Below are positions 7,699 through 12,485 of a DNA stretch of 32,068 bases, piece by piece. How positions within the stretch are numbered: position 1 is the first letter of the stretch; each line of letters opens with the position of its first letter. This DNA is from Candidatus Cacconaster scatequi (GTDB lineage Bacteria; Bacteroidota; Bacteroidia; Bacteroidales; UBA932). The notes beneath the pieces were generated by a model. The model was not told the DNA's origin. It worked only from the letters and a program-made list of their open reading frames with translations, and made no database searches. The translations under genes and the position numbers were made by a program. The stretch spans positions 1 through 32,068 of the forward strand of contig JAGHTO010000051.1 in NCBI GenBank assembly GCA_018065305.1. The letters are read 5' to 3'.

Positions 7699-8310
7699 TT
7701 ATGAGAGGGAAAGGTTGTATTTCGCCAGAATATCGTCTCCCTTTTTATAGCGCACGGCGTTGAGACCGGCGGCTCTTGCACCTTCCACGTTGGCGATTGA
7801 GTCATCTACGAAGAGAATCTCTTCGGGAAGGAAGCCTGTGCGACGGACAACCTCGTCAAAGATTTCCCTTCCGGGTTTGAGCATCTTCAGCCTGAAGGAG
7901 AAAAAGAACTCCCTGAAGCAGCCGGACACCCCTTGTTTATCGAGAATTTCCATTTCGTGCTTTAAACATACCGGGTTGTTGTTGCTTAGGATAAACAATG
8001 GATAATCCTTTGACAGTAAGATAATTTGCCGAATTATATCAAGGTTTGCTCCAGCAACAAGCGAGTTAAAGCAAAACTTTATGTCATCTGCGGTTGCATC
8101 CTTTGTGCAATGACGAAGACATTCCTCATAGAACTCACTCTCATCTATCAGCCCTTCCTCCAAATCGCTTATGAAACCCTTCTGGTGATAGACGTCGAGA
8201 TATGTCTTTATGTCCGAAAACCCTGCTCTCTCCTTGAAATTTCTTATGCAACGGGGCATATCCAAATCAAGGATGACACCTCCCATATCGAAAATGACAG
8301 CCTTGATCAT
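7699..8310 (-). CDS. HAD-superfamily hydrolase (subfamily IA), last gene of the six-gene operon
   Basis: A 203-residue phosphatase-like protein. Motif I is FDMGGVILD with the nucleophile Asp8; the usual second Asp is Gly, as in YihX-type HADs. Motif II is FILSNN, motif III has the Lys in MLKPGREIF, and motif IV is FVDDS. A cap domain lies between motifs I and II. The frame extends 11 codons further upstream, but the ATG at 8310 shares a base with the stop of the preceding ketoreductase gene (TAATG), which marks translational coupling. Its role in the operon is unknown; it could dephosphorylate a product or be a housekeeping sugar-phosphate phosphatase carried along. Confidence 0.85.
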   Translation of the reverse strand: MIKAVIFDMGGVILDLDMPRCIRNFKERAGFSDIKTYLDVYHQKGFISDLEEGLIDESEFYEECLRHCTKDATADDIKFCFNSLVAGANLDIIRQIILLSKDYPLFILSNNNPVCLKHEMEILDKQGVSGCFREFFFSFRLKMLKPGREIFDEVVRRTGFLPEEILFVDDSIANVEGARAAGLNAVRYKKGDDILAKYNLSLS

Positions 8311-9038
8311 TATGTGTAGAGGCCTCCGTTGATGGAGATGCATTCGCCGGTGATATACGCGGCTTCATCCGATGCGAGGAACGCTACAAGAGAGGCGATT
8401 TCCTCGGGTTCTCCGAATCTGTTCATCGGAATCTGTGCCTTCAGGGCGGCTTCATCGAGTCCCTCCACCATATCGGTCTTCACGAATCCGGGAGCAATCG
8501 CGTTGACTGTGACTTTCTTCTTGCCGATTTCCTGTGCAAGAGCCTTTGTGGCAGCGATTATTGCGCCCTTTGCGGCGGAATAGTTGGTCTGCCCCGGCAG
8601 TCCCTTGAGGCCTGAGAGGGAAGCCATATTGATGATTCGTCCGTGTTTGTGGCGGAGCATCGGCTGAAGTACTGCGGTTGTGACGTTATAGAATCCGTCC
8701 AGAGTGATGTCAAGTACCCGGCGCCAGTCCTTGTACTCCATCAGGAAAAGAAGGGCGTCGCGGCGGATTCCTGCATTGTTAACAAGGACATCTATGTAAT
8801 CATCGGGGTGGTTCTCCTGCCAGGCCTTGATGGCTTCAGCGGTGGCCGCTGCGTCGGAAACGTCGAATTTAAGAAGTTCAGCCTCTCCTCCTGCCTGACG
8901 CACCAACTCTGCTGCCTCTTCCGCGGCCTTGTCGTTGGATGTGTAATTCATCAGGATATTGTATCCTTTTGAAGCAAGCTTTACGCTGACAGCGCGACCT
9001 ATGCCGCGGCTTGCTCCTGTCACCAATGCGTATTTCAT
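8310..9038 (-). CDS. 3-oxoacyl-ACP reductase-like SDR (FabG type)
   Basis: A 242-residue short-chain dehydrogenase. The cofactor loop is TGASRGIG at 7-14, followed by NNAG at 87-90 and the catalytic Ser140, Tyr153 and Lys157 (NYSAAK). The C-terminal part, SIRFG-like in FabG, reads MNRFGEPEEIASLVAF and ends in ITGECISINGG, typical of FabG. It should reduce 3-ketoacyl-ACP to 3-hydroxyacyl-ACP with NADPH. Within this operon it would act after the ketosynthase and before the dehydratases. It overlaps the flavoenzyme gene by 4 bases and the HAD gene by 1. A second, housekeeping FabG is expected elsewhere in the genome. Confidence 0.92.
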   Translation of the reverse strand: MKYALVTGASRGIGRAVSVKLASKGYNILMNYTSNDKAAEEAAELVRQAGGEAELLKFDVSDAAATAEAIKAWQENHPDDYIDVLVNNAGIRRDALLFLMEYKDWRRVLDITLDGFYNVTTAVLQPMLRHKHGRIINMASLSGLKGLPGQTNYSAAKGAIIAATKALAQEIGKKKVTVNAIAPGFVKTDMVEGLDEAALKAQIPMNRFGEPEEIASLVAFLASDEAAYITGECISINGGLYT

Positions 9039-10486
9039 ATACCGAATTCTTTTTTAATCTTGTCCAGTCCCAAAATCTGGGCGCAGGTGTAAAGGGATGT
9101 CATTGAAACCCCCAAAACTCCGTGCAAGTTAAGGTTTTGTCCTGTCAAAAGCAAATTTTCAACGGGAGTCCGCGGACTGAGCACGGTTGTGAGCGGACTT
9201 CTCCAGTCTTTCATTATCCCGAAGGCAGATCCGTACGGGGTTGCCGTGTAGTCCCGATAGGTCAGGGAAGTGCTGGTATAATATCTCTCGATGGCACCGG
9301 AAAGTCCGGGAACGGCTTTTTCGGCGAAACGGATGCAATCCTCAGCGTAAGCCCTCTTGAAGGCTTCATATTCTTCGCCGCGGCGCATCGGCTTGCCTTC
9401 GCTCCATTTTTCCAGTTCCGTGAAATCGAGGTATGAAAGCAGGTCGATATTGGTGGCATATTTGCCGTCATCCGGCACAGCGTAACTGATCATCAGGCTC
9501 ATGCCTTTGTCTGCCCAGACGTCGGCATCTTCGCTGTGAAGATAGACGTTGCTGTTGACGTATGGCAGAACGCCCGGTTTTATCACGGCATTGACCGTGA
9601 ATACGCCCTTGCTGTTGCGAAGCGATGAAATTCTCCTGCGATATACTTTTTTGACGCTCCCTCCTTCAGGAATCAGTTCCAAAGTGGCGGCTGGATGGAT
9701 GTCGGAGATGAAAAAGTCTCCCGGATAGAGGTTGCCGTCACTGTCAACAGCCTCCGTGATTCTTCCGTCCGTCTCCTTGAGAAGTTCAACCTTTGAACGG
9801 GTGATGACCCTCCCTCCGAAGGCCTTGATTCCCTCGGAAAGTCTCTCCGCAATCAGGCTTCCGCCTCCTCTGAGCCGCCATCCGCTCTGGATGAACGAAT
9901 TGTTGATCTGGGCAAAGATATACAGGGGAAGGGTTTCGCGGTCATATTTGAGACGCAGCGAGGCTCCGCTGAGAACCTTCCTCAGGAGCGGGTCCGATAT
10001 GCAGTCGCAAAGGAAATCATATGCCGACATACCGAATAGGGGCATCGTTTCTCCCGTGCCGAAATTGGAGCTGATAGTGTCACCGACACTCTGCAACTTT
10101 GAGATATATCGGCACAGGCCTTCCCGTTCCGCAGGAAAAGAGGCGGACAGTGTGTCAACAAAGTTGCCGTGCCCGGAAGCCAGGCTATAGGAATTGTCTC
10201 CGATGACTATTCTGTCGACACAGTCTTTGTCAAGTTCCACCCACGGAAGGGAGTCGAGTCCATAATATTTGAAAAGCCATTCAAGCGACTCGCCGCTGCC
10301 GAGACCCCCGACGTAGTGGAATCCGGTGTCGAATACGGCTTTTCCGCGGCGGTATGTCTGAAGGCATCCTCCAATCTGGAGTCCCTGCTCCAGCACCGTC
10401 ACGTCATATCCGTTTTTTGCAAGCACATAACCGCACTGCAGGCCACCGAGACCTGCACCTATGATTATGACTCGCTGAGCGGCCAC
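9035..10486 (-). CDS. CrtI/RetSat-like FAD-dependent oxidoreductase
   Basis: A 483-residue flavoprotein of the phytoene desaturase / retinol saturase group. The Rossmann motif is IIIGAGLGGLQ at 7-17 with the ribose-binding Glu33, then IGGCLQTYRR, typical of the family. The C-terminal FAD-binding end is LTGQNLNLHGVLGVSM. Members desaturate, isomerise or saturate conjugated polyenes. Next to a ketosynthase, a reductase and dehydratases, it may act on a polyenoyl chain, but the direction of the reaction cannot be told. The start is GTG at 10486, one base after the stop of the ketosynthase gene; no in-frame ATG fits better. A carotenoid role is unlikely because no phytoene synthase is present. 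Confidence 0.85.
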   Translation of the reverse strand: MAAQRVIIIGAGLGGLQCGYVLAKNGYDVTVLEQGLQIGGCLQTYRRGKAVFDTGFHYVGGLGSGESLEWLFKYYGLDSLPWVELDKDCVDRIVIGDNSYSLASGHGNFVDTLSASFPAEREGLCRYISKLQSVGDTISSNFGTGETMPLFGMSAYDFLCDCISDPLLRKVLSGASLRLKYDRETLPLYIFAQINNSFIQSGWRLRGGGSLIAERLSEGIKAFGGRVITRSKVELLKETDGRITEAVDSDGNLYPGDFFISDIHPAATLELIPEGGSVKKVYRRRISSLRNSKGVFTVNAVIKPGVLPYVNSNVYLHSEDADVWADKGMSLMISYAVPDDGKYATNIDLLSYLDFTELEKWSEGKPMRRGEEYEAFKRAYAEDCIRFAEKAVPGLSGAIERYYTSTSLTYRDYTATPYGSAFGIMKDWRSPLTTVLSPRTPVENLLLTGQNLNLHGVLGVSMTSLYTCAQILGLDKIKKEFGI

Positions 10487-10487
10487 G

Positions 10488-11705
10488 TTACAGGTTTTTG
10501 ATTACAAGTGAGGAGTTCGTGCCTCCGAACCCGAACGAGTTGGAGAGGAACATGTCAAAGTTCTTTTCTATGCGTTTTGCGGGAATCAGAAGCTTGGCCG
10601 AATCTTCATCGGGGTTCTCGAAGTTCAGGTTGGCCGCGATAAAGCCGTTCTTCATCATAAGGATGGAGTAGATGACCTCGCTGGCACCGGCCATCCACAT
10701 CTCATGGCCTGTCTGGCTCTTGGTGCTGGTGACTTCAGTGCGCTGGTCTCCGAAGACCTTGTAAATCGCTTTTGCTTCGTTGGTGTCGCCTACGTGGGTG
10801 GACGTTGCGTGGGCGTTGATGTATCCGATGTCGGATATCTGCACGCCAGCGCGCCTGATTGACATCTCAAGGGCGCGGCTCGGACCTTCCACGTTGGGGG
10901 AGGAGATATGGTCACCATTGCTTGAAAAACCGTATCCCAAAACTTCCGCAATTATCGGAGCGCCCCTGCGGACAGCGGATTCATAGCTCTCAAGAATTAC
11001 CGTAGCGGCTCCGCCACCCGGAACAAGTCCGTCGCGGTCACGGTCGAAAGGACGGCTGGCCTTCTGCGGTTCATCCTCCCTTATGGAGAAAGCCGCTATT
11101 CCGTCGAATGAGCCTGTCGCCGCAGGGTTGATCTCCTGAGCTCCGCCGCAGACAACCATATCCTGAAGTCCGTCCTGAATAAGCAGTGCGCCGAGTCCTA
11201 TCGAGTGGGAACCGCTGGCGCAAGCTGCAGAAATGGTCATATTTATTCCCTTCAGCTTGAAAATCACACTGAGGTTCATCGTCACGGTGGAGTTCATGGA
11301 CTGGAATATTGCGCCTGAACCGCAGAGCATCGTGTCTTTCTTCTGGACTATCGTGTTCACCGCGTTGTAAACCGGTTCTGCCGTGCTGTCGCCGCCGTAG
11401 AGTATTCCCACCTCGTGGGTGTTGAGATACTCCTGGTCTATGTGGGCATTGGCGAATGCGTCGCGGGTCGCGCAATATGCGTATTTCGCATGTTCGGGCA
11501 TATAAACCCTCTGCGATCTGGGAAGTTCCTTCTTCAGGTCCGGGCTGTCGACATAACCTGTCAGACCGCTGCGGAATCCCATCTCCTTGCGTACGGGGTC
11601 GAGGATGATGCCTGACTTTCCGTTGTACAGGGAATCCCTTACTTCATCAAGAGTTTTACCTAGGCAGGAATAGATGCCCATTCCGGTTATCACTACACGT
11701 TGCAT
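10488..11705 (-). CDS. Beta-ketoacyl-ACP synthase (KAS I/II type)
   Basis: A 405-residue condensing enzyme with the thiolase fold. The nucleophile is Cys162 in SAACASGSH, and the two active-site histidines are His299 in NAHATSTHVGD and His334 in KSQTGHEMWMAG, so it should be catalytically competent and not a chain-length factor. It would extend an acyl-ACP by two carbons with malonyl-ACP. No chain-length-factor partner and no acyl carrier protein gene are in the operon, so it either works as a homodimer or pairs with a protein encoded elsewhere. It overlaps the upstream dehydratase-like gene by 13 bases. A housekeeping FabF is possible, but its neighbours argue for a dedicated pathway. Confidence 0.92.
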   Translation of the reverse strand: MQRVVITGMGIYSCLGKTLDEVRDSLYNGKSGIILDPVRKEMGFRSGLTGYVDSPDLKKELPRSQRVYMPEHAKYAYCATRDAFANAHIDQEYLNTHEVGILYGGDSTAEPVYNAVNTIVQKKDTMLCGSGAIFQSMNSTVTMNLSVIFKLKGINMTISAACASGSHSIGLGALLIQDGLQDMVVCGGAQEINPAATGSFDGIAAFSIREDEPQKASRPFDRDRDGLVPGGGAATVILESYESAVRRGAPIIAEVLGYGFSSNGDHISSPNVEGPSRALEMSIRRAGVQISDIGYINAHATSTHVGDTNEAKAIYKVFGDQRTEVTSTKSQTGHEMWMAGASEVIYSILMMKNGFIAANLNFENPDEDSAKLLIPAKRIEKNFDMFLSNSFGFGGTNSSLVIKNL

Positions 11706-12052
11706 AATCTTACAGACATTTTAGAACTTAACTGGCCGCCGGCGTAGATACAGACAGCCCATCTGCCCCCGTCATCCAGTTTGGACAACTCATAGCGCAC
11801 TGATTTGTGCTCCAGAGGGCTTATTATCGACAGGAACTTGATATCCTTGGCTTCCGCAAGAGCGAGGCTCCGCTTTTCTATAACGGACGCAATTTCAACC
11901 GCAATCTGGACAAGGCACACGCCGGGTGTGATGGGCTTGCAGGGGAAATGAGCTTTGTAAATCTCACTGTCCGGCAGAAGAGCGATGTCGGCGACGTAGC
12001 CGGCATCCCTGAAAGTCAGGGAGGTTAATTTATATAGGTTACCTTTAATCAT
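11693..12052 (-). CDS. Hotdog-fold dehydratase-like protein with catalytic His but no Glu
   Basis: A 119-residue FabZ/FabA-like hotdog protein. The central-helix motif HFPCKPITPGVCLVQ starts with His35, the dehydratase histidine. FabZ has Glu, and FabA Asp, 14 residues after the His; here that position is Gln49 (codon CAG, checked on the minus strand). The protein therefore holds only half of the normal dyad. The preceding gene product keeps the Glu and lacks the His. Because dehydratase active sites form across a dimer interface, the two may make a heterodimer. It overlaps the upstream gene by 8 bases and the ketosynthase gene by 13, consistent with matched synthesis. Confidence 0.82.
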   Translation of the reverse strand: MIKGNLYKLTSLTFRDAGYVADIALLPDSEIYKAHFPCKPITPGVCLVQIAVEIASVIEKRSLALAEAKDIKFLSIISPLEHKSVRYELSKLDDGGRWAVCIYAGGQLSSKMSVRLCNV

Positions 12053-12485
12053 CGACCGGCATACTTGTATCCTGCGCCGTCTTGATTGACGATTGCGCTA
12101 TTATTTCACTTCCTACGCGAACGACAGCCTCACACAATTGTATTCCGGCTATGTTCTCTCCGAAGATTACGGTGGTGTGGATGGTTTCTCCGACTTCGGG
12201 ATTGCGTTTGACAATGAGATGGTGGACATTGCCTATGTAGCCGACAGTCACTTTGCCGTGTTCGATGAACTTCGATACATACCCTATCTTGGCCACAGCC
12301 GACTGGGCGATGTTTTCAATGAGTCCCGGAGTCTGGAACACACCGTTTTCGGTAAAAATGGAGTCTTCCCTGATCAGATAAGAGGTCTCGGCGGAACTCT
12401 CGTCGCAACCAAGCAATGAGTCAATGAAGACGAAAGGCTTTCGCTGTGGGATAATATCTGTTATTTTTACCGATTTGGAGGTCAT
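12045..12485 (-). CDS. Hotdog-fold dehydratase-like protein (ApeP-like) with Glu but no catalytic His
   Basis: A 146-residue hotdog protein and the first gene of the operon. Its opening IPQRKPFVFIDSLLG aligns with the FabZ N-terminal motif LPHRxPFLLVD, and TPGLIENIAQS aligns with the central helix of FabZ, placing Glu57 at the catalytic acid position. The residue 14 positions earlier, where FabZ has its His, is Ile43, and no HFPG motif exists. Proteins of this kind occur in aryl-polyene-type clusters. Alone it should be inactive as a classical dehydratase; paired with the next gene product it could complete one active site. A strong promoter lies 25 bases upstream of its ATG. Confidence 0.78.
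   Translation of the reverse strand: MTSKSVKITDIIPQRKPFVFIDSLLGCDESSAETSYLIREDSIFTENGVFQTPGLIENIAQSAVAKIGYVSKFIEHGKVTVGYIGNVHHLIVKRNPEVGETIHTTVIFGENIAGIQLCEAVVRVGSEIIAQSSIKTAQDTSMPVDD

Follow-up and report, generated by a model that had tools for sequence, protein, structure and literature searches.

Overlapping hotdog genes of Candidatus Cacconaster scatequi probably encode an ApeI:ApeP-type dehydratase with catalytic residues divided between two chains

The dehydratases FabZ and FabA build each active site from the His of one subunit and the acid of the other. A locus of Candidatus Cacconaster scatequi (contig JAGHTO010000051.1 of assembly GCA_018065305.1) raises the question of what two small hotdog proteins encoded side by side might do when one of them lacks the acid and the other lacks the His. 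The two genes (hereafter referred to as P1 and P2) are found in the 32,068-nucleotide stretch of DNA that was analysed, referred to as a whole as the window:

12045..12485, minus strand: P2, ApeP-like hotdog protein of 146 amino acids (aa), ATG start; retains Glu57 and Gln61 but has Ile43 where the catalytic His would be
11693..12052, minus strand: P1, ApeI-like hotdog protein of 119 aa, ATG start; retains His35 but has Gln49 at the position of the catalytic acid, with Glu53 a turn further on
12045..12052, minus strand: 8-base overlap between the P2 stop and the P1 start, from the open reading frame coordinates

Direct reading of the translations bore out a preliminary description of this DNA, which had reported His35 with Gln49 in the 119-residue protein, Glu57 with Ile43 in the 146-residue protein and an overlap of 8 bases. 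Translation of P2 and P1 may be coupled through this overlap. The stretches concerned are ...YKAH35FPCKPITPGVCLVQ49IAVE53... in P1 and ...EDSI43FTENGVFQTPGLIE57NIAQ61... in P2. The FabZ register fits both chains, P1 being anchored by the HFPxxPxxPG motif and P2 by the ExxxQ motif. Counted from the His, three FabZ sequences from same-genus genomes (GHFPGYPVVPGVILCEIMGQ) carry E at position +14 and Q at position +18, in agreement with the 14-residue spacing previously assumed. At the catalytic positions, P1 has no acid at +14 and P2 has no His, so that neither chain holds the residues of a FabZ or FabA homodimer. Because the His and the acid come from different subunits in those enzymes, a P1:P2 pair would have one site composed of His35 and Glu57/Gln61 and a second composed of Ile43 and Gln49/Glu53. 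The second interface of such a pair had been described as devoid of both catalytic residues, but Glu53 (codon 11894-11896, minus strand), a nearly invariant acid located one helix turn past Gln49, had been overlooked.

We consider it probable (at about 0.83) that P1 and P2 together constitute a heterodimeric 3-hydroxyacyl-acyl carrier protein (ACP) dehydratase of the ApeI:ApeP type, with one working site. His35 of P1 would act as the base or proton shuttle and Glu57 of P2, with Gln61, would provide the acid across the dimer interface, whereas the other interface site, from P2 Ile43 and P1 Gln49, would be dead. The chains are predicted to pair physically, with the two residues face to face, and each would be inactive alone. 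The substrate would be a 3-hydroxyacyl-ACP from the neighbouring beta-ketoacyl synthase (KS) and FlxB-type ketoreductase (KR), and the double bond would be left in place. The evidence consists of the residues themselves, their conservation, the co-occurrence of the genes, which mostly lie on the same strand, a single natural fusion, and a resemblance in both fold and sequence to the two chains of Protein Data Bank (PDB) entry 6QSR. A composite single-site heterodimer is a known kind of mechanism and is well supported for this pair. The single composite site had already been proposed for this locus, and conservation, co-occurrence, the fusion and 6QSR all favour it; the mechanism is nevertheless not new, as ApeI/ApeP is described as heterodimeric with a single active site, on the basis of sequence comparison, in the relevant part of PMC8041823.

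The conservation of the residues was assessed in two sets of relatives. For set (a), 149 genomes from the family to which the window belongs were searched with whole proteins and with profiles; the 30 best loci per search, together with 20 hand-chosen regions, yielded 41 unique P2-like and 45 unique P1-like sequences. Set (b) came from one scan of named genome contigs, from which 80 of 561 loci were kept; the scan pattern required Gly54, Glu57 and Gln61, and P2 conservation at these positions is therefore built in. Pooling gave 95 unique P1 rows and 116 unique P2 rows. His35 was kept in all 95 P1-like rows (45/45 in set (a), 53/53 in set (b)), whereas position 49 varied: Q 28, E 11, A 3, Y 1, D 1 and G 1 in set (a) (n = 45), and Q 42, E 3 and others 8 in set (b) (n = 53). 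Overall, an acid was present at this position in 15 rows and lost in 80. Glu57 and Gln61 of P2 were each found in 41/41 sequences of set (a), and Gly54, Glu57 and Gln61 in 116/116 pooled rows, up to 80 of which had been preselected by the motif including these residues. No pooled P2 row had a His at position 43 (0/41 in set (a), 0/80 in set (b), 0/116 in total), seven rows carrying one a single column before it.

The split-residue pattern exceeds chance and holds in many relatives, and the reported split thus stood up to the alignment of homologues. Fixed working residues with drifting dead-site partners are what a model with one live site predicts: once the ApeP-like chain has no His, its partner's acid would be free to vary. 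The ApeI-like chain seems to have lost its acid in the 80 sequences mentioned above and the unused site both of its residues; this second site would be doubly dead because most of the Bacteroidales P1 chains examined have lost the acid that ApeI keeps. When the 95 P1 rows were placed on a tree, inferred with column 49 excluded and with few columns and many open forks, the presence or absence of an acid at position 49 required at least five changes, three of which were forced by well supported branches; these changes may be gains or losses. In the genome of L085 (Candidatus Cacconaster caballi; L188, L189), a second P1-like gene with Glu at +14 was observed beside the Gln-bearing one, and both states therefore occur within one genome. 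A pair of independently broken dehydratases and a sequencing error were both rejected as explanations, the two genes being open, conserved and co-occurring.

The distribution of the two genes was consistent with a joint function. Both P1 and P2 were detected in 63 of the 149 family genomes, P2 only in seven, P1 only in five and neither in 74 (Fisher p 1e-27, a value overstated by the relatedness of the genomes and the incompleteness of many of them). A P1-like gene was present in 53 of the 80 set (b) loci, some of which end nearby. The genes shared a strand in all 53 named loci with both and in 36/37 unnamed loci, and their frames were at most 20 bases apart, overlapping or single in 9/53 named loci. 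In uncultured Prevotella (L096:9974-10840), P2 and P1 form one open frame of 289 residues that keeps the split, with the Glu in the first half and the His, with Gln at +14, in the second. This natural P2-P1 fusion supports the pairing of the two proteins.

In searches with family profiles, both proteins scored far under the NCBIfam fabZ cut-offs; P2 gave weak FabZ matches (NF000582, 28.6 bits, cut-off 113) and had no Pfam family at E 0.01. The P1-family profile (A1) matched 6qsr_A (E 5.8e-5) and the P2-family profile (A2) matched 6qsr_B (E 0.0068), with FabZ chains scoring higher in the same table in each case. The PDB title of 6QSR is 'The Dehydratase Heterocomplex ApeI:P from Xenorhabdus doucetiae'. 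P1 as modelled by AlphaFold2 (pLDDT 95.2; predicted template-modelling score (pTM) 0.88) had 6qsr_A as its top VIA-align match (Z 15.6, 111 residues aligned, root-mean-square deviation 2.3), followed by 8ayd (FabZ, 15.2) and 3esi_A (14.9), which by sequence is related to ApeI; with less than 1 Z between them, these matches are tied. In the Foldseek ranking, FabZ chains came first and 6qsr_A was not among the 50 matches listed. For the P2 half of the L096 fusion model, the top match was 6qsr_B (Z 20.4), with FabZ rows from 19.9. The alignment used for this model (A4) contained 20/67 P2 rows and 33/49 P1 rows, picked by trial for correct MAFFT placement. The ApeP chains themselves resemble P2 at the relevant positions: that of Escherichia coli CFT073 has Glu and Gln, with Phe 14 residues before the Glu and no His in that stretch, and 6qsr_B has a His 8 residues ahead of the Glu, a place other than the catalytic -14.

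Several points weigh against a composite P1:P2 dehydratase. ApeI of E. coli and Xenorhabdus retains Asp at +14, which makes the match to the known pair inexact, and P1 scored 21.8 bits against PF22818 (ApeI-like), under the gathering cut-off of 28.5; P1 is for this reason named ApeI-like and not assigned to the family. The AlphaFold2 model of the L096 fusion has good domains, with a pTM of 0.59 that leaves the inter-domain geometry unfixed, and no His35-Glu57 distance is therefore claimed. A single partner was found in 12/149 genomes, several of which are incomplete, and in L077 and G481 the two genes are encoded on opposite strands. The fusion occurs in just one of the 80 named loci, and a second uninterrupted one was absent from the matches listed for 393 genomes of the order. 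Finally, Glu53 of P1 has no explanation in this model: position 53 is E or D in 91 of the 95 pooled rows while position 49 varies. This acid might function in a homodimer of P1, where it would act with the His35 of the opposite chain, the acid having shifted by one helix turn, and where P2 would be separate or structural. With Gln at +18 in FabZ, the Gln and the Glu of P1 look swapped, as this arrangement would have it. We nevertheless consider it quite improbable, given that P2 invariantly keeps Glu57 and Gln61 without a His of its own, which a bystander would not need, that P1 and P2 co-occur and have been fused once, and that E. coli ApeI has a His, and no acid, at +18.

The heterodimeric dehydratase would act within a small biosynthetic cluster. 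P2 heads a tight run of minus-strand genes, in the order P2, P1, KS, oxidoreductase, KR and HAD, the KS and P1 genes sharing 13 bases:

10488..11705, minus strand: KS of 405 aa (PF00109/PF02801), with Cys (AACASG) and His motifs read from the sequence
9035..10486, minus strand: flavin adenine dinucleotide (FAD)-dependent oxidoreductase of the CrtD/CrtI type, 483 aa (TIGR02733, 138.8 bits, under the cut-off of 549.7)
8310..9038, minus strand: KR of the FlxB family, 242 aa (NF053542, 398.1 bits, over the cut-off of 340)
7699..8343, minus strand: HAD-family hydrolase of 214 aa (PF00702), with a 34-base overlap with the KR gene

The active-site Cys and His motifs identify the first of these proteins as a KS and not a chain-length factor (CLF). 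The HAD hydrolase may belong to the pathway, as suggested by its overlap with the KR gene. Relatives of the oxidoreductase recur close to P1/P2 at other loci, and the enzyme, encoded beside a fatty-acid-like synthase, may desaturate or isomerise the acyl chain. No KS:CLF pair, ACP, acyl-ACP ligase or exporter was found among the window proteins scanned, no genome-wide search having been made for the last three. The cluster also bears on whether P1 and P2 are dehydratases at all, rather than a binding or scaffold pair or the enzymes of another hotdog reaction (thioesterase, isomerase or decarboxylase). There is a precedent, according to the part of PMC10698177 concerned, in AmcE, a hotdog protein of a KS cluster that was first assigned as a dehydratase and is a decarboxylase. 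For P1 and P2, such a change of function appears decidedly improbable, since His35 and Glu57 are invariant, one per chain, and the KS and KR of the cluster make the substrate of a dehydratase.

Two layouts were found around the P1/P2 pair among relatives. The long cluster, present in many of them, combines a KR with three KS genes and FAD oxidoreductases, and its P2 and P1 genes are separated by several kb. The compact order P2-P1-KS-oxidoreductase-KR is shared by the window and L085, which has an ACP in front; L127 is also compact, with the KS ahead of P2 and additional genes for an MMPL family protein, LolA and a 4HBT thioesterase. The compact P2-P1 cluster with one KS recurs in Bacteroidales (L085:6710-11129, L127:8431-16677, L072, L137 and window 7699-12485) and is distinct from the long aryl-polyene-like clusters, although L137, a short contig, shows no KS. 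P1 is joined to an apparent glycosyltransferase-2 domain, read from sequence, in L050, L059, L076-L078 and L089, echoing the E. coli apeI-glycosyltransferase neighbourhood. A P2-like protein joined to an apparent 4HBT thioesterase was likewise read from sequence at L013:1090-1923.

As to the product, the presence of a KS, a KR and a dehydratase in a cluster with no recognised enoyl reductase suggests an acyl chain that is unsaturated or a polyene. In the window's genome, a search with PF00109 at E 0.001, which a very divergent CLF could escape, detected two KS genes in all: that of the window, with its Cys kept, and one that is FabF-like and was not inspected residue by residue. No aromatic ammonia lyase (PF00221; tyrosine ammonia-lyase FlxA) was found in this genome, which is 96% complete. 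A full flexirubin or aryl-polyene (APE) cluster was thus ruled out there for the parts tested (KS count and ammonia lyase). These results do not establish a product of the aryl-polyene or flexirubin kind, and the suitability for a bulky polyene chain put forward in the preliminary description found no direct support and amounts to a guess.

FabZ itself was also searched for. Canonical FabZ was not found in the window's genome (G000), an incomplete assembly in which gaps are possible, with either PF07977 or a same-genus FabZ as the query, and the near relatives L084 and L085, which have the same P2-P1 pair, gave nothing but P1-like matches. In the genus, PF07977 had matches in 30/40 genomes, 28 of them above 54 bits, a score typical of FabZ (three were read), and two weak only. 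The window's genome has an LpxC gene devoid of a FabZ domain, situated between genes reading as lpxD and lpxA; other same-genus genomes have a separate FabZ, located in three of them near a second FabF-like KS (loci considered: G000, L182, L177 and L187-L189). FabZ chains hold both catalytic residues, and each of P1 and P2 might accordingly complete its site with another partner, such as the housekeeping FabZ; we regard this as very remote, since the window's genome, incomplete as the assembly is, yielded no canonical FabZ and since the P1 and P2 genes overlap and co-occur. It is also conceivable, although unlikely, that FabZ was lost in this lineage and that P1:P2 is the sole 3-hydroxyacyl-ACP dehydratase left, serving membrane fatty-acid synthesis. 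Fatty-acid synthesis would then have been taken over by an asymmetric enzyme of the pigment type, one of whose sites is live and the other doubly dead. Two observations weigh against such a takeover: G015, which is 98% complete, has no detected FabZ, P1 or P2, so that the absence of a detected FabZ does not require P1:P2, and the L084/L085 relatives hold a second P1-like gene together with five or six KS genes.

If P1 and P2 form the proposed composite dehydratase, many Bacteroidales show what appears to be the next stage beyond ApeI:ApeP, which offers a test, set up by nature, of whether related subunits that pair degenerate in a complementary way. Such pairs should be annotated as one enzyme and not as two broken ones, and in this pair the part played by Glu53, which hardly varies, can be tested directly.

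Several known systems resemble P1:P2 in part. The fold and the motif positions are those of FabZ/FabA, but the chains of those enzymes hold both residues and two sites work, whereas P1 and P2 hold one residue each. HadAB and HadBC of mycobacteria resemble the proposed pair in being heterodimeric hotdog dehydratases; in HadAB, both catalytic residues lie in HadB, and the Hydratase-2 motif is carried by one subunit of HadAB/MaoC-type heterodimers. The aryl-polyene cluster differs in its KS:CLF pair and further KS, for which the two KS genes detected genome-wide do not suffice. The KR is FlxB by the NCBIfam cut-off, as in the flexirubin cluster, but the window's genome, with its two KS genes and no aromatic ammonia lyase detected, is unlike that of Chitinophaga pinensis, for which the relevant part of PMC3992019 gives five putative KS and two putative dehydratases, FlxF and FlxS, in the flexirubin cluster. 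The passages of PMC8253772 concerned list apeA, B, D, F, J, K and R as the E. coli deletions leaving APE-related metabolites; apeI and apeP are outside that list, and neither is named there. In the part of PMC8358021 consulted, ApeH-ApeP is named as a dehydratase, its residues not being stated. The one-site hotdog heterodimer is already known from ApeI:ApeP of bacterial aryl-polyene pigment clusters, and this is the closest parallel: two small hotdog chains are encoded in one cluster, with the His in the ApeI-like chain and Glu and Gln in the ApeP-like chain, P2 keeping Glu57/Gln61 without a catalytic His. P1:P2 differs from it in the gene arrangement, with overlapping genes instead of the distance of about 6.7 kb between apeI and apeP of E. 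coli, and in the ApeI-like chain, in which Gln and Glu replace the Asp at +14 and the His at +18 of the Xenorhabdus and E. coli proteins.
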